Source: a virus. From it: DNA of 34,459 nt. Under the pieces are notes generated by a model. It ran no database searches. It was not told the origin of the DNA and saw only the letters and a list, made by a program, of their open reading frames with translations. Location of the stretch: IMG/VR virus record IMGVR_UViG_3300010883_000181, positions 1 to 34,459 of that record. One strand, 5' to 3'. Shown in pieces: positions 1,145 through 30,085 of this stretch; the first letter of the stretch is position 1, and every line of letters begins with the position of its first letter. A program made the position numbers and the translations under genes.

Positions 1145-2663
1145 CTTTATTCACCTTTATTTTTACATATGACTTTGTAGTTCTTACTTCTTCAAACATG
1201 TGTTTTACATTTTGCCAATGTCTATAAAATTTATTTCTACCACACTGTTCGTTTTTTCTGAAAGCCTCAATCATTAACTTTTTGTCTACCCATCCTTCTG
1301 TACCATTAACCCTAACCTTTGGTTTTGTTAAATTGTATGCTACTACATACATTTTTTCATTACTCTTGTCGTTGAATCTTTTTGGTCTTTTCTTTAACTT
1401 ATCTGTGAACCAAGTAGTAATAGAGTCAAAAGATTCATCTGTTAATACTCTACCTTGTTCAATATGCTTTGCTGTAATTACCTCACTTCTTTCTGAAACG
1501 GCACATAATGCCGCCGCAATACAGATATTGTTTATCATATTCATAAGGAAGGTATTTAACGCTTCGTATATATTATCATCGAAACTATCCATGTACTTTT
1601 TCATACCTTTCCATACAGTCTTCAATCTTTTTTGAGCATCTTTAGAAAATACAACAACTTTTCTTTTATCACCATTAACTGCTTCAAGTCTTTCCTGTGC
1701 CCATCTATAAGAAGAATAAAGCATTTCTGAAAACTCTTCTTCATATGCCGCAGTTCCGTTATCTTCTTCAAGAATTTCTCCAATCATATCTATATAATCT
1801 TCTTCCATTTTTGACCTAAGAGATTCCGGAACATCTCTAACATAAAGCCACATACGCTGAAACACACCCTTAGTAAGAATTACCTTTTCTAATCCTTCCG
1901 GTGGTAATGTGGTAGCCCATAAAGAGCGTTGAGAATCTACCACTAAATCCTTTCCCCAATCAGTTAGCCTTTTCTTAATTAAGTGTGTCTTAGAATCAAG
2001 ACGATTCATAAACTTTTGAAACAACATAACTGTTTCTTGTTTATGTTGTGACTCCTTGAAAATACCCGAATGTTCAAATTCATCAAATGCTATTAACCCA
2101 CTACCATACAAACTACCAAAAATAGTTTCGTCGTGCATCTTAGGTATATCGTAATCAGCATCTCCATCAGCATCTTCTTTATTATAATCAGGATTAGGAA
2201 CATCCATTTTCATAGTTCCTAATAAAGATTGGTCAGTAAAACTATCTGGGTTATTTAAAGTAAATTCTTTAACACCTTTTAATGGTAATTCTTGATTTCT
2301 AACAGGGTGTTGATTAACTAATTTAAAGGTCGCTTCCCATACAGGACTTAAGAAATCAAACATTGTTGTCTTACCACTTCTTGAAGTTTGAATCCAACAG
2401 TAATGTATTCTTGGGTCTAACGCTAACCTTCCTATTGGGACTCTAATAACATCTTTTAGTATCTGTCCCATTGATACAAAGTATGCCATCTTAGCGGAGT
2501 AATCATTGTAAAGAGAAAACTCCCCTACAATTTCAGTCCACCTAATAACATCTTTTGGTAGTTCTACTTTCTTTGAACGAATAACTCCTAAACTACTTGT
2601 ATCAGTAACTTGTGCCAACGCATCATACATATCCCATTCATCTATATCTAAATCATCTGTCAT
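1137..2663 (-). CDS. AAA+ ATPase, probable replicative helicase (MCM-like)
   Basis: A P-loop variant with SGKTT lies at residues 92-100, and a Walker B motif LIAFDEFEH near 190-198. A sensor-1-like segment (SLWATTLPP) and a possible arginine-finger segment (FQRMWLYVRDVP) follow. A helical lid-like region near residues 370-410 and a basic winged-helix-like C terminus resemble the layout of MCM and related viral helicases. The start is supported by GAGGTGA seven bases upstream. The gene sits next to the primase and the XPF-like nuclease, which fits a replication role. The Walker A motif lacks the usual first Gly. Assignment to MCM proper, rather than another AAA+ or superfamily 3 clade, is uncertain. 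Confidence 0.6.
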   Translation of the reverse strand: MTDDLDIDEWDMYDALAQVTDTSSLGVIRSKKVELPKDVIRWTEIVGEFSLYNDYSAKMAYFVSMGQILKDVIRVPIGRLALDPRIHYCWIQTSRSGKTTMFDFLSPVWEATFKLVNQHPVRNQELPLKGVKEFTLNNPDSFTDQSLLGTMKMDVPNPDYNKEDADGDADYDIPKMHDETIFGSLYGSGLIAFDEFEHSGIFKESQHKQETVMLFQKFMNRLDSKTHLIKKRLTDWGKDLVVDSQRSLWATTLPPEGLEKVILTKGVFQRMWLYVRDVPESLRSKMEEDYIDMIGEILEEDNGTAAYEEEFSEMLYSSYRWAQERLEAVNGDKRKVVVFSKDAQKRLKTVWKGMKKYMDSFDDNIYEALNTFLMNMINNICIAAALCAVSERSEVITAKHIEQGRVLTDESFDSITTWFTDKLKKRPKRFNDKSNEKMYVVAYNLTKPKVRVNGTEGWVDKKLMIEAFRKNEQCGRNKFYRHWQNVKHMFEEVRTTKSYVKIKVNKDE

Positions 2664-3340
2664 TAATATTTCACCTCATTTTCTGAATTCAATGCCTTAA
2701 GTACATTCTCAGCAGTTTTATTTCCTATACCTTTTAACTTGATAATATCTTTACTATCAGCCATAGTTATTTCTGCTATACTTCCAAAGGACTTTAATAG
2801 GGCTTTTGCTTTTTCTACTGAAACACCCTGTATTTCAGAAAGTACATCTACTCGTACATCATCTGTTTTAATTTTCTTTGGTAATTCTTTGTGTATAATT
2901 AATTGTTTATCTATATGTTCTGTTGTTGCTAATATAATATGGGCGGCAGTTCTATAATTATCTACCCATACAGGTTTAACATCTGTATGTAATGCTATTG
3001 AAGTTAAAGCACCAACAAACATTTTCTTTAATTTACTTCGCCATCCCATCGAGTTATAATTTGTTCTACGAAGATACTCCATAGCGTCATCTAAACTCCC
3101 ATATATTAATATTATATTTTTATTATATGTTCTATCCATGTTATCTAATTGGTTAAAGATTCTTTTATTCCTAACTGATGCTAAGAAATCAGCGGCTGAT
3201 TTTGCTTCTATACAACAATCACCAATAATATAATCTCCTATCTCTAACCACTTCTTTTCTGTTTTTACTTTTGCTTTACTCGCTAAGTCAATTAGCGTTC
3301 TACTTAATTGTGAATCTTCTCTACTATCAATTGTTATCAT
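2663..3340 (-). CDS. XPF/Hef (ERCC4)-type structure-specific endonuclease
   Basis: The N-terminal nuclease domain shows IDSRE, then GDYIIGDCCIEAKSAADF, matching the GDY...ERKxxxD core of XPF/Mus81/Hef nucleases, but with Glu-Ala-Lys instead of Glu-Arg-Lys. The segment NKRIFNQ matches the usual helix after the core. The C-terminal 70 residues contain two helix-hairpin-helix motifs (IQGVSVEKAKALL and LKGIGNKTAENVL) that bind branched DNA. There is no N-terminal helicase domain, unlike full archaeal Hef. The start has GGAGGT six bases upstream. Such enzymes cut forks, flaps or recombination intermediates. It sits in the primase/helicase cluster. Confidence 0.88.
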   Translation of the reverse strand: MITIDSREDSQLSRTLIDLASKAKVKTEKKWLEIGDYIIGDCCIEAKSAADFLASVRNKRIFNQLDNMDRTYNKNIILIYGSLDDAMEYLRRTNYNSMGWRSKLKKMFVGALTSIALHTDVKPVWVDNYRTAAHIILATTEHIDKQLIIHKELPKKIKTDDVRVDVLSEIQGVSVEKAKALLKSFGSIAEITMADSKDIIKLKGIGNKTAENVLKALNSENEVKY

Positions 3341-4367
3341 GTCCGTACCTCCAACACTTACCTATGCAAAGTCCTTCTTCAATTAAAGTATTACAATGAG
3401 GTGCCATATATCTACCGTCTACAATAAACGATACATGCTTTTTTGTCTCGTATTTATTATAATCTATCCAAGTATCTTCATTGGATGCTATGGTATTAAC
3501 CTCATGTTCAATAATACTTTTAATATCATCTAAAGAACCTCCACTTAGTTCTCTTGGGTTTATTGTTAAATCTTCTTTTACTACTACTAATTCTGATAAA
3601 AACTCGTTATACCATTGAACAAGAAGTACTCTTGCTCTATGATTAGGATTTTCTGACATTACTGCATTTTTTAAGCAGGGTAATATAGGTAAATCACCAG
3701 GACTTTCTACACTATCAATTTCTATGTCTGCACTTTCCATCTTAATAACTTCAGGCCACTCTACTAATGTATTACCATAATATACAGGTTTTATATTTCT
3801 TGCACCTTTTTGTGACAGTTTATATATTGTGGGCAATCCAGAATATAAATCTTGTGAAGTAATAGGAATACACCATCTTTGGGCCTTTAGATGATATGTA
3901 TTCTGTATTCTCCTTAACCTACTTGTATTAATTACTACTGTATCAAGATATTCACTTTTATTTACTACATCATAACAGATATTAAAGAACGCTTTTATTT
4001 GTCTGAAGGTATTTGCTACTTCACCATAAACAAAAATATGAAATCCTCTACCTGAAAAAGAAATATTATGCTTGTAGTCTTTACTTAACAACCACTTATG
4101 CATTCTAAATACATCTTGATATAAGTTTTCTAACGGCTTTCCGTGTGCATCAAAGTCTAAAAATATCCTATCAATAATAATAGAATATTCTAATCCCCTG
4201 TTAGTTGTAAAGTGTTTATAATCATACACTGATGTAAAAAGATTCATTTTACCATTATACATTTTGATAAAATCTTTATACTCATCTTCATCTTTAACTA
4301 TAATCCTTGAAGGTTCTCTTGCTCTATTTCTTAGGCTACCTGCCCACATCTCTCTCGGAAAATACAT
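3327..4367 (-). CDS. Archaeo-eukaryotic primase, small-subunit (PriS)-like
   Basis: The catalytic motifs of the AEP superfamily are present: FLDFDAHG (metal-binding Asp-x-Asp), SFSGRGFHIFV (Ser-Gly...His nucleotide-binding motif), and DTVVINTSRLRRIQNTYH (third acidic residue plus the RNxYH-type segment). The C terminus carries a Cys/His set (HCNTLIEEGLCIGKC), which may bind zinc or an iron-sulfur cluster. I place the start at 4367 because GAGGTGAT lies four bases upstream; a longer in-frame extension to 4412 has no such signal. The gene starts inside the small zinc protein at 4336-4464. It would make primers for the viral PolB. Confidence 0.85.
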   Translation of the reverse strand: MYFPREMWAGSLRNRAREPSRIIVKDEDEYKDFIKMYNGKMNLFTSVYDYKHFTTNRGLEYSIIIDRIFLDFDAHGKPLENLYQDVFRMHKWLLSKDYKHNISFSGRGFHIFVYGEVANTFRQIKAFFNICYDVVNKSEYLDTVVINTSRLRRIQNTYHLKAQRWCIPITSQDLYSGLPTIYKLSQKGARNIKPVYYGNTLVEWPEVIKMESADIEIDSVESPGDLPILPCLKNAVMSENPNHRARVLLVQWYNEFLSELVVVKEDLTINPRELSGGSLDDIKSIIEHEVNTIASNEDTWIDYNKYETKKHVSFIVDGRYMAPHCNTLIEEGLCIGKCWRYGHDNN

Positions 4368-9743: not shown

Positions 9744-9988
9744 TGTTTCTCTCTCCCTAAAACTTTTTCCTTTGTCATCTTTATATCACCTAACACCCAT
9801 CTAAGGGCACTGATGACACCTTGTAATCCTTTATAGTTATTCCAATGTTGTACTCGTAAAGGTTTTGGACAATTTTGAAATGCTAACCATCTCTTATTTT
9901 GTTCTGCTTCAGCAGTATCTAATAGTGTTTCAATTTGTTCCCAACTTCTTGTATATGAAAAGTTTTCACTGTCTTGATGGTCATTCAT
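9740..9988 (-). CDS. Small helical protein of unknown function (82 aa)
   Basis: I do not recognise it. The sequence is predicted to be mostly helical, with several Trp residues (SWEQ, RWLAF, HWNN, RWVLG) and a basic C terminus. It starts with an 8-base overlap with the upstream zinc-protein gene and ends in an ATGA overlap with the GMPR/IMPDH gene, so it is translated with them. No zinc ligands or membrane segment are visible. Confidence 0.7.
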   Translation of the reverse strand: MNDHQDSENFSYTRSWEQIETLLDTAEAEQNKRWLAFQNCPKPLRVQHWNNYKGLQGVISALRWVLGDIKMTKEKVLGREKQ

Positions 9989-10160
9989 ATTTATCCCTCC
10001 TTAATTCTTTTTCTATAAATAATTTTTCTACTTTATCTATGTAGCATACATTACAAATACGAGAATAACCGTCAAGTTTAGTTAGAGAAAATGAATACAC
10101 AGGGGAATTACAATCTTCAAAATTACATTGGGTATTAGATACTTTCCATAATTTATTCAT
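9981..10160 (-). CDS. 59-residue zinc-finger protein
   Basis: Two Cys pairs (CNFEDC and CNVC, about 20 residues apart) form a likely zinc ribbon, followed by a charged helix (KVEKLFIEKELRRDKYE). I choose the ATG at 10160 because it overlaps the upstream TGA (ATGA) and has GGGAGG seven bases upstream; the ATG at 10166 is too close to that site. The function is unknown; it is one of many small zinc proteins in this array. Confidence 0.7.
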   Translation of the reverse strand: MNKLWKVSNTQCNFEDCNSPVYSFSLTKLDGYSRICNVCYIDKVEKLFIEKELRRDKYE

Positions 10161-10336
10161 TCCCATTCCTCCCCAAAATCCATTCCCATTCTAAATCTAG
10201 CCTGTAAAACTATCTTATGACATTTATCGCAACAGTAACCTTTGTTAATAGGATGTGCTAAATGTCCATATCCTAAATACGGTTCGTTGCAAATACTACA
10301 AAGTTTTTCACTCTTCCTCATTTCCATCATCTGCAT
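10157..10336 (-). CDS. 59-residue treble-clef zinc protein
   Basis: The motif CSICNEPYLGYGHLAHP followed by YCCDKCHKIV gives a CxxC...CxxC(H) treble-clef-like zinc site of a type often met in phage genomes. The ATG at 10336 has GGAGGGTG six bases upstream, within the end of the previous gene, so translation is probably coupled. A longer frame to 10378 has no ribosome-binding site. The function is unknown. Confidence 0.72.
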   Translation of the reverse strand: MQMMEMRKSEKLCSICNEPYLGYGHLAHPINKGYCCDKCHKIVLQARFRMGMDFGEEWE

Positions 10337-10508
10337 CTTTTTCACCCTCCATCTTACATACCGGACAATTATTATCACTAATTAACTCGCTACACCAACC
10401 GGTCTGATGTAATACATTTGCTGCTTCTAAATTAAAAGCGTTTGACATAAATGAAATCATGGCTAATAACCCTTCTATTACTTGTCTTTCTTCTGTTTTT
10501 TCTTTCAT
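10308..10508 (-). CDS. 66-residue protein with a CPVC motif
   Basis: The N-terminal half is a predicted helix with a hydrophobic patch (LLAMISFMSNAFNLEAA). Cys-Ser...Cys-Pro-Val-Cys follows, which may bind zinc with the first Cys, and the acidic tail ends GNEEE. The start lies in an ATGA overlap with the upstream stop. It overlaps the next gene by 29 bases. I do not recognise the family. Confidence 0.62.
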   Translation of the reverse strand: MKEKTEERQVIEGLLAMISFMSNAFNLEAANVLHQTGWCSELISDNNCPVCKMEGEKDADDGNEEE

Positions 10509-19725: not shown

Positions 19726-20009
19726 TCTTCATCACTCTCTTCTATCCATTCGCCAAATTCTTCTTCTTCTTCTTCAACTATTACTTCTTTACCTACACTA
19801 TCATTAAAATTAACATAAGCAATCTTAACATGATTAACAGTTAATCTTGTTTTAGTCTTCTCTCCACCTGCTTCATCATTACAAAGGTTAGCAAAATCCT
19901 CTAAAATCTTTTCTGCTCTCGTTTGAAATTCAATGATTGATGGTAAAGGTAATTGTCGTTCCGGTGCTATCTCTTCAAATATTCTTTTTATCTCTCTTAT
20001 ACTAACCAT
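19722..20009 (-). CDS. Possible histone-fold protein with acidic tail
   Basis: The 95 residues can be laid out as a histone fold: a short helix (IREIKRIFEEIAPE), a loop with LPLPS, a long central helix (about residues 25-48, QTRAEKILEDFANLCN), a loop with Thr-Arg-Leu-Thr-Val and a final helix (NHVKIAYVNF) that matches the (R/K)xTVxxxxhxxA ending of archaeal histones. The C-terminal 20 residues are almost all Glu and Asp, so DNA wrapping is not certain; a TAF/NF-Y-like or chaperone role is possible. The gene precedes the ligase. This is a pattern-based call without a search. Confidence 0.42.
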   Translation of the reverse strand: MVSIREIKRIFEEIAPERQLPLPSIIEFQTRAEKILEDFANLCNDEAGGEKTKTRLTVNHVKIAYVNFNDSVGKEVIVEEEEEEFGEWIEESDEE

Positions 20010-20419
20010 TTATCTACACTCTCCTTATTGTAAAAGTATTTTGGACTTTCAACTTTTTTAAGATTCAGGGCTATCCATACTGAACCACTTAGAGAATCAA
20101 CTCTAATTATTTCATAATTTTCTGTCACTATATAGGTTTCAACTTGAGGTGTTCTACCATAAAGCCTTTGAATCTCACTTGATACAATAGATATATTATC
20201 TACTATATATTTAATAATCAAAGGTTGTTGTATTTCTACATAAGGTTCAGATTCTAATTCATAATCTCCTGTCCAATTACAGACATTACATCCTTTCTTA
20301 TTACAGATAGGACAATTAATAATTAAATTTCCCAATACAGGAAACCTTATTCTTCTGAGTCGTCGAACTCTATCAGATTTGTCTTGCTTAGATATTGTTT
20401 GTTTTGATTCTTCCACCAT
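19997..20419 (-). CDS. Zinc-knuckle protein of unknown function
   Basis: CPICNKKGCNVC forms a compact zinc knuckle resembling half of a DnaJ cysteine-rich domain. The rest looks beta-rich, with a C-terminal segment (YEIIRVDSLSGSVWIALNL) that recurs loosely in the protein at 25589 (YEVIRVTSLKSNGSVW). The ATG at 20419 overlaps the JAMM gene by 73 bases, which is long for this array. A TTG at 20335 that keeps the zinc knuckle is the alternative start. Confidence 0.65.
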   Translation of the reverse strand: MVEESKQTISKQDKSDRVRRLRRIRFPVLGNLIINCPICNKKGCNVCNWTGDYELESEPYVEIQQPLIIKYIVDNISIVSSEIQRLYGRTPQVETYIVTENYEIIRVDSLSGSVWIALNLKKVESPKYFYNKESVDKWLV

Positions 20420-20802
20420 TTCATTCTCTCTCCATCACCTAAAACAATTGCTGATTCAAGAATTAACAATTGAGCATTTATTGTTCCCCAATCAGTATCA
20501 CTAAAATATGCAACACCAAAAGGATGAGTATGAATCCAACACTTAAAGGGAATCTTCATACCTGAAACATCTTCATTTTCATAATCAACAAAACTTCGAG
20601 TACCTTTACTGATGAATAGATTATTATCTCTATCAACAATAACAGATACTTCTAATTCTCCAAGATATTCTGTTGATACTTGCCAAATCGAATTCAAGAA
20701 CTTTTCACTCTCATAGTTTTTATTCGTAGCGGAGAAGGAATCATTTATTTCATCTTTCATATCCTGCCAATATTCTTCAGTTACTATTACATTATCAATC
20801 AT
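20347..20802 (-). CDS. JAMM/JAB metalloprotease (deubiquitinase-like)
   Basis: His91-Thr-His93 is followed after seven residues by Ser101 and Asp104 (HTHPFGVAYFSDTD), the complete JAMM zinc motif HxH-x7-SxxD; a Glu near residue 49-51 can be the catalytic acid. JAMM enzymes cut isopeptide or peptide bonds after ubiquitin-like proteins. The partner set is present in the window: a Gly-Gly-Ser-Cys-ended ubiquitin-like protein (29854-30060) and an E1-like enzyme (21734-22291). The start is an ATGA overlap with the zinc-finger gene upstream. Removing the last two residues of the viral ubiquitin-like protein is the most direct proposed role. Confidence 0.85.
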   Translation of the reverse strand: MIDNVIVTEEYWQDMKDEINDSFSATNKNYESEKFLNSIWQVSTEYLGELEVSVIVDRDNNLFISKGTRSFVDYENEDVSGMKIPFKCWIHTHPFGVAYFSDTDWGTINAQLLILESAIVLGDGERMKWWKNQNKQYLSKTNLIEFDDSEE

Positions 20803-21733: not shown

Positions 21734-22291
21734 TCACCCGTTAATCTTGAAATGTTTTTCTACATAGTCTCCATTAAACCATCGTTGCATCCATTGGACA
21801 CCATAACCTGCAATTACTACCTGCATAAAATTAACACCTTCTGCTTTTCCTTCCCACTCATTACCTTGACAAGAAAAAGAACCATCTGGTCCACTTGTAA
21901 ATACATTATATAACTTAGGGTCTTCTAAATGTGAAATCATAGCAGCATTTCTTGCTTGTGCCCTCAAATCTAACCACTTAACATCTGAATTATACATTGT
22001 TCTACGAATATCTAAGTTATCAGCACAACAGATAACTAAATCATAGCCTTTTAATTGTCCTGCTGTTAAAACCTTGTATGGTTGAGCATCAATATTGTAT
22101 TTTTCTGCCATAGCATCAACCTTTCTCTTATCAATATCTTCTTTGGTAAAATTTTGATAAGTAATATTCTTCAATTCTACAATATCAGGGTCATAAACAG
22201 TAATATCATACAGTCCAACTTTATCTAACAGTGGAATCATAAAACTTCCTATTCCACCTGCGCCAATCATCATTACATTTCTCTTTTTCAT
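21734..22291 (-). CDS. E1/ThiF/MoeB-like adenylating enzyme, minimal form
   Basis: The Rossmann ATP site MIGAGGIGSF (residues 8-17), acidic residues in YDPD (34-36), Asn42, Lys57 and Asp91 match the E1/ThiF adenylation site. Cys141 in GSFSCQG is a candidate thioester Cys. The protein has 185 residues, shorter than ThiF or MoeB (about 250), and lacks the CxxC zinc pairs, as do several phage and PRTRC-type relatives. It would activate the Gly-Gly terminus of the viral ubiquitin-like protein. It starts in an ATGA overlap with the TFB-like gene; its start carries AAGGAAAGTG. Confidence 0.85.
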   Translation of the reverse strand: MKKRNVMMIGAGGIGSFMIPLLDKVGLYDITVYDPDIVELKNITYQNFTKEDIDKRKVDAMAEKYNIDAQPYKVLTAGQLKGYDLVICCADNLDIRRTMYNSDVKWLDLRAQARNAAMISHLEDPKLYNVFTSGPDGSFSCQGNEWEGKAEGVNFMQVVIAGYGVQWMQRWFNGDYVEKHFKING

Positions 22292-22911
22292 ATTCTCACT
22301 TTCCTTAAGTTTCTTTTTAATCTCGGCAGACTAACTCCGAATAACGCACACACTTGTTTTTGAGTATATGGTGTGTGTTCATATACATATGAGGCAATTA
22401 TACCTCGTGTTAATGTTTGTACTTCGTTCCATTCCTTACACTTATCAGAAACTTCCTTGTTTTCAATGCCCATATTAGACAAAAACTCGTCAATATCATT
22501 TATTCCAAACACTCCTGAATTAGAATAATGCCTTGCAATTCTTTTTGCGAGACGGCTTACTCTACTTGTTTTACAACCTAAGAATTTACAGTAATCTCTG
22601 TAATTAGTAGGCTTATTTAAATCTCTTAATGTATAATAAAGAATAGCACAAGCCCTCTCCGCTAAATCATAAGTATAATACATATTAGTATAGGAAATAT
22701 ATTTATCATTCTTGATAACTTCATCCTTATCTTCTATGTCATACTCATTCATAAGCATCATTAAGTCTGTGCTTTCTATTTTTTTATGTGTTGTATTTTC
22801 TATTACTTCGTATATTCTATACGCTTGAATACAACTACAATCTTGACAAACAGGTAGATTAAGACCTGTCTTTAATTTCAGGTGCTTGCTTTGACAATTC
22901 ACACATGGCAT
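22288..22911 (-). CDS. TFB (TFIIB)-like transcription initiation factor
   Basis: An N-terminal zinc ribbon (Cys3, Cys6, Cys22, Cys25) is followed by two cyclin-like helical repeats. The first contains ERACAILYYTLRDLN and SRVSRLAKRIARHY; the second, RGIIASYVYEHTPYTQKQVCALFGVSLPRLKRNLRKV, closely follows the TFIIB repeat ending. At 207 residues it is shorter than cellular TFB (about 300), and the linker is reduced. The first Cys pair requires the start at 22911, giving a 53-base overlap with the upstream gene. It could redirect host RNA polymerase to viral promoters. Confidence 0.72.
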   Translation of the reverse strand: MPCVNCQSKHLKLKTGLNLPVCQDCSCIQAYRIYEVIENTTHKKIESTDLMMLMNEYDIEDKDEVIKNDKYISYTNMYYTYDLAERACAILYYTLRDLNKPTNYRDYCKFLGCKTSRVSRLAKRIARHYSNSGVFGINDIDEFLSNMGIENKEVSDKCKEWNEVQTLTRGIIASYVYEHTPYTQKQVCALFGVSLPRLKRNLRKVRI

Positions 22912-29853: not shown

Positions 29854-30060
29854 TCAACAACTTCCGCCGACAATTGCTTGAGCCAAAACGACTTCATCTA
29901 CATTGTTAAAATCAATGTTAGCAATTTCTTCTCTTGTGACTAACTCGCCATCAACATATGCCCAATGTGTAGGGTGGTCGATAATTTGGTCTAATGCTTC
30001 TGTTGCACTTAGAGTTAGTTCTGTGTGTCCTGTTTCGTTTAATATTGTTATTTTTACCAT
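29854..30060 (-). CDS. Ubiquitin-like beta-grasp protein ending in GGSC (Prok_Ub/ThiS-like)
   Basis: The 68-residue protein follows the beta-grasp order: strand 1 VKITILN, strand 2 HTELTLS, helix ATEALDQIIDHP, strand 3 WAYVDGELVT, then REEIANIDF and a last strand VDEVVLAQAIV leading into Gly65-Gly66-Ser-Cys. The VDGELV(T)REE and acidic-VVL-AxVGG segments match the ThiS/Prok_Ub type. The two residues after Gly-Gly would have to be removed before E1 activation, a task suited to the JAMM enzyme at 20347-20802. The ATG at 30060 has AAGGAAGTGA five bases upstream. Confidence 0.8.
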   Translation of the reverse strand: MVKITILNETGHTELTLSATEALDQIIDHPTHWAYVDGELVTREEIANIDFNNVDEVVLAQAIVGGSC

Positions 30061-30085
30061 ATCTTTCACTTCCTTATTGTTTTAT

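Follow-up and report, generated by a model that had tools for sequence, protein, structure and literature searches.

Does a short viral open reading frame (ORF) whose product ends in Gly-Gly-Ser-Cys encode the precursor of a ubiquitin-like modifier, and would a JAMM protease of the same virus remove the two residues beyond the Gly-Gly pair? The ORF lies in a 34,459-base IMG/VR viral record, the whole of which was analysed and is referred to here as the window. The window also carries genes for a family-B DNA polymerase, an ERCC4-type nuclease, an ATP-dependent DNA ligase, a ribonucleotide reductase and an IMPDH-type enzyme, together with three tRNA genes. The best PDB matches of its RFC-type clamp loader are archaeal RFC small subunits, and the strongest phage matches of this protein are to Haloarcula tailed viruses, at approximately 30-33% identity. 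Such Haloarcula viruses group with marine viruses of archaea (PMC8651126), which makes an archaeal tailed virus the likely source. The ubiquitin-like (UBL) gene and its 3' end are laid out as follows.

29854..30060, minus strand: ORF of the ubiquitin-like modifier precursor (UBL), 68 aa plus stop, with a beta-grasp prediction and 85 homologues.
29863..29868, minus strand: codons of Gly65-Gly66, where the functional C terminus and the cut are predicted to lie, invariant in 85/85.
29857..29862, minus strand: codons of the Ser67-Cys68 tail, a predicted propeptide, absent in 9/85 homologues and otherwise variable in length and sequence.

The ORF runs from an ATG at 30060 to a TGA at 29854-29856 and its product ends AIVGGSC, confirming the Gly-Gly followed by Ser-Cys from which the original prediction started. 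A GTG at 30069, nine bases upstream of the ATG, is a less likely start, because the alignment of close homologues begins at the ATG, which has a GGAAGTG stretch before it. Homology scans found UBL relatives in considerably more than 100 IMG/VR stretches, and many of the viral contigs that carry them are approximately 95 kb long. Among the seven closest relatives compared, dN is approximately 0.03-0.09 and dS approximately 0.64-0.95, nonsynonymous change running at about one tenth of synonymous change; at the sequence level the ORF is a real gene under purifying selection. The window UBL taken alone matches no Pfam family and no PHROG, and its matches in annotated phage genomes are at chance level only. 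Nine of the 85 UBL members match the ThiS profile, weakly and below the curated cut-off, and weak matches of members to the PinA-inhibitor Pfam family were regarded as chance and set aside.

An AlphaFold2 model built from the 85 homologues has a mean pLDDT of 82 and the element order strand-strand-helix-strand-strand-helix-strand. Foldseek comparison of the model with the PDB returned mostly ubiquitin-family structures (NEDD8, ubiquitin, SUMO, ISG15 and ThiS), with probabilities up to 0.97 and modest E-values (best 0.0097); the best TM-scores among the matches listed, 0.58/0.60, are to a sulfurtransferase-complex chain, 5ztb_E (TtuB-type). The model thus supports the proposal that the protein is ubiquitin-like, and we regard the predicted beta-grasp assignment as good but not beyond doubt. 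An earlier fold from 13 sequences was poor, gave no useful match and is superseded by this one.

The original prediction also held that the short tail would have to be removed for activation, an idea that a variable or missing Gly-Gly among homologues would count against. The pair was present in all 85 distinct homologous proteins from IMG/VR viruses, which were collected in scans seeded on parts of the protein other than Gly-Gly. Each of the two positions shows every one of the four Gly codons among the 99 distinct DNA versions, so the conservation is at the level of protein sequence, and judging from these sequences the presence of the pair is far beyond chance. What follows the pair is not constant: nine of the proteins have no further residue, 18 have one and 54 have two, and tails of 4, 7, 8 and 9 residues occur in one protein each. 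On the E1 protein tree (95 rows) the presence or absence of a tail needs at least 5 changes, its length class at least 20 and its sequence at least 58. With Gly-Gly invariant, the tail variable and at least five switches between tail and bare end, this is how a propeptide behaves: Gly-Gly would be the end that functions and the tail could be dispensed with. The pattern supports trimming, and the tail is probably removed before use.

The commonest last residue of the tail is Tyr, which closes 27 of the 76 tails; among 1,494 other ORFs of these viruses its share is 1.2% (Fisher p 2e-26, a value inflated by relatedness, though on the tree Tyr requires at least 15 changes). Cys ends 12/76 tails against 1.7% in other genes, an enrichment smaller than that of Tyr. 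One guess at the cause is a JAMM preference, in that the enzyme that cuts may favour tails ending in Tyr, Cys, Leu or Phe. Tyr and Cys codons neighbour stop codons, and we considered an origin of the tail residues in mutated stop codons; since Ser (AGT/TCT), Leu (CTT) and Asn codons, all of them common in the tails, are not neighbours of stops, this cannot account for most tails. A special role for the final Cys, as a product or regulator of sulfur transfer, had been suggested as well and is not supported, given its poor conservation: Cys is the last residue in only 12/85 homologues, and 6/85 end in Ser-Cys. QbsE, to which the layout had been likened, ends in Gly-Gly-Cys-Phe. None of the 85 homologues has Cys-Phe as its tail, and some have Cys-Tyr.

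The enzymes that could act on such a precursor, and a possible partner protein, are encoded on the same strand of the window.

21734..22291, minus strand: minimal E1-like (ThiF) activating enzyme, 185 aa, without a rhodanese domain (PF00899, E 5e-16).
20347..20802, minus strand: JAMM metalloprotease, 151 aa, with AMSH-like and CsRpn11 profile matches.
20491..20532, minus strand: JAMM zinc-site motif, translation HTHPFGVAYFSDTD, containing invariant residues.
19997..20419, minus strand: small CPxC...CxxC protein, 140 aa, overlapping the end of the JAMM gene.

The ThiF-type nucleotide-binding core is present in the E1 (PF00899 together with GxGGxG, K57 and D91), and GxGGxG, K57, D91 and C141 are invariant in 121/121 sequences. 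Its profile matches MccB, UBA5, Cap2, MoeB, Uba4 and ThiF structures. The enzyme has Tyr45 where the NLTRQ motif of MccB has Arg and is without paired zinc cysteines (C141 shows a weak alignment to one of them); its chemistry may therefore be different. Immediately upstream of E1, at 22288-22911 on the minus strand, lies a 207-aa ORF with an N-terminal four-cysteine ribbon and an HTH-like C terminus; by eye the product resembles a TFB-like transcription factor, and it has no significant Pfam match.

A JAMM enzyme had been said to occur in the same virus, and the gene is there with its motif intact: the JAMM/MPN+ pattern E...H-S/T-H-x7-S-x2-D is present as E51 and H91-T-H93-x7-S101-x2-D104 in 119/119 sequences. 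The window JAMM scores 16.8 bits against Pfam Prok-JAB, below the curated cut-off of 25, and its profile finds AMSH-type deubiquitinases as best match (E 5e-5) and archaeal CsRpn11 weakly. Peptide patterns returned no JAMM relatives in the viral collection, and the relatives were found instead beside E1 genes; annotated phage genomes hold no JAMM relative. The CPxC...CxxC protein, which has homologues in 141 loci and keeps its four Cys in 99-100% of 103 sequences, may act in the UBL system as an adapter or a ligase-like partner.

The three genes travel together. UBL, E1 and JAMM were each found in 30/30 near-full-length related records, and the order UBL, E1, JAMM on one strand recurs in 128 loci. 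One locus (L007) had been flagged as without JAMM; its sequence stops 1.2 kb past the E1 gene, within the 548-2306 bases that separate E1 and JAMM elsewhere, and it is therefore no evidence of absence. Bare Gly-Gly UBL proteins occur in 17 loci, and all 16 of these that reach the JAMM position have an intact JAMM motif. No E2 or E3 was recognised for the system, the E2 search (UQ_con) matching 0/25 records and likewise no control genome, so that its control was not working. One 184,733-base record (G018, locus L064) has two UBL, two E1 and two JAMM genes approximately 90 kb apart and is probably two related genomes joined during assembly. Three contigs labelled Maricaulis and Altibacter (L171, L172 and L173) carry the same E1 family at 53-55% identity, and are probably viral contigs binned into bacterial assemblies rather than host copies. 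A contig of Candidatus Methanoperedens sp. BLZ2 (L174) encodes at 9875-10489 a 205-aa ThiF protein that shares approximately 30% identity with the viral E1; the 20 kb of this contig covered has neither a UBL nor a JAMM relative.

We consider it moderately probable that the virus encodes in this ORF a ubiquitin-like modifier that starts as a precursor trimmed by the JAMM, is activated by the E1 and conjugated, and is removed again by the JAMM. The UBL would be synthesised as a short precursor whose C terminus is blocked by the residues beyond Gly-Gly, Ser-Cys in this virus. The viral JAMM would be the enzyme most likely to cut after Gly66 and free the Gly-Gly end. The small ThiF-type E1 would then adenylate this end and might form a thioester through its invariant Cys141; the UBL would be transferred onto host or viral proteins without a recognisable E2. 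The same JAMM would later strip the UBL from its targets, probably the role for which it is conserved: viruses with a bare Gly-Gly end need no trimming and keep the JAMM nonetheless, so deconjugation probably comes first among its jobs and trimming second. Given this pattern of retention, trimming cannot be the only task of the predicted protease. It could act on host conjugates instead.

The best-surviving alternative, which we consider fairly unlikely, is that the UBL is a sulfur carrier like ThiS, MoaD, TtuB, QbsE or CysO, whose trimmed Gly-Gly thiocarboxylate gives sulfur to a tRNA, nucleotide or metabolite, with the JAMM trimming the precursor or, as in CysO/Mec+, releasing an adduct. The ThiS-type structures and the TtuB-type chain among the fold matches fit this, as do the weak ThiS profile matches in 9/85 members and the Cys-Tyr tails, which come near the Cys-Phe of QbsE, and JAMM-containing sulfur-transfer gene clusters are known (PMC1779556). 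Against it, rhodanese (PF00581) was found in 0/30 records with the control positive in 13/14 genomes, ATP_bind_3 and MoaE in 0/25 with working controls, and PALP (PF00291, CysM-type cysteine synthase) in 0/25 with the control positive in 14/14; the JAMM is, moreover, kept where the UBL needs no trimming. The likeness to QbsE accordingly stands for the layout and fails for the rest, with neither rhodanese nor the other sulfur partners searched for and no conserved Cys-Phe tail. Sulfur carriage is retained as an explanation because host enzymes, including cysteine synthase, could supply the missing functions.

The viral JAMM might instead serve mainly in counter-defence, removing host SAMP-type modifiers from viral proteins while the UBL and E1 overload or redirect the pathway of the host and do not make up a separate system. 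Borg elements have many JAMM proteins, for which reversal of SAMP tagging by the host has been proposed (PMC12660748), and retention of the JAMM by bare Gly-Gly viruses fits here too. The occurrence of all three genes together in 30/30 records is, however, what a matched set would give, and strict specificity for the cognate modifier is known among JAMM proteins (PMC6043591); we hold this explanation to be quite improbable. That the UBL is no modifier at all, and is rather a small binding or assembly factor with a structural Gly-Gly and a tail that is never removed, is very unlikely: many beta-grasp proteins are not modifiers and a tail so often ending in Tyr (27/76 against 1.2% in other genes) could have its own function, but nine distinct homologues are tail-less, and strict Gly-Gly with a linked E1 and JAMM is better explained by processing.

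For the preferred reading, that of a trimmed, conjugated and removable modifier, several known systems offer comparisons. Scattered E1 or JAB genes are known from bacterial and archaeal viruses, and eukaryotic ubiquitins have a precursor tail. The SAMPs of Haloferax have a tail-less Gly-Gly end, and UbaA is a larger E1. JAMM trimming is already a known idea; what is new here is the setting in viruses and its conservation. The SAMP/UbaA/HvJAMM1 system of Haloferax volcanii, which is E2-less, likewise combines an archaeal-type UBL and a single E1 with a JAMM, there a deconjugase (PMC4443979), whereas here the UBL, E1 and JAMM genes are viral and lie in one region. In Caldiarchaeum subterraneum the CsUb precursor likewise has a tail after Gly-Gly, and CsRpn11 cuts it precisely there and also releases CsUb from conjugates (PMC6043591). 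The CsUb system is cellular, with a nine-residue tail and an E1, E2 and small RING protein, in contrast to the mostly two-residue tail, minimal E1 and lack of a recognised E2 of the viral system. According to Makarova and Koonin, linkage of a Jab gene to a Ubl gene is rare in archaea (PMC2948915).

In the Pseudomonas siderophore clusters with QbsE/QbsD and PdtH/PdtG, a UBL, an E1-like enzyme and a JAB protein likewise occur together (PMC1779556), but there the E1 is fused to a rhodanese for sulfur transfer, and the viral set has neither a rhodanese nor a conserved Cys-Phe tail. The TAPI/TAPK proteins of lambda-type phages include a Ub-like domain that has a conserved Gly, and a JAB domain predicted to cut it (PMC1779556); these are tail-assembly genes with no E1 described in the cluster, whereas the viral set sits amid replication and nucleotide-metabolism genes. 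Comparable as a virus-encoded pair are the adjacent Prok-JAB and ThiF genes of the crAss-like phage cr106_1, with no small ORF ending in Gly-Gly within 3.5 kb. The products of this pair (locus L176, positions 1731-4163), a 405-aa Prok-JAB and a 403-aa ThiF protein annotated only as hypothetical, are larger than those of the viral set. In the open-access literature searched, no complete UBL-E1-JAMM set is described in an archaeal virus, and no complete set borne by viruses and kept throughout one of their lineages.

The system is small (68, 185 and 151 aa), and activation, trimming and removal could be reconstituted in vitro; the homologues, whose natural tails range from 0 to 9 residues while the core stays constant, are a panel for JAMM cleavage preferences. 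The wider proposition, which we regard as evenly balanced, is that a marine, probably archaeal, tailed-virus lineage depends on its own complete, E2-less UBL conjugation and deconjugation system, near-universal in the replication region, which would modify host or viral proteins in infection. If true, protein tagging by a conserved UBL, E1 and JAMM with a precursor tail would be a regular component of a viral life cycle outside eukaryotes.
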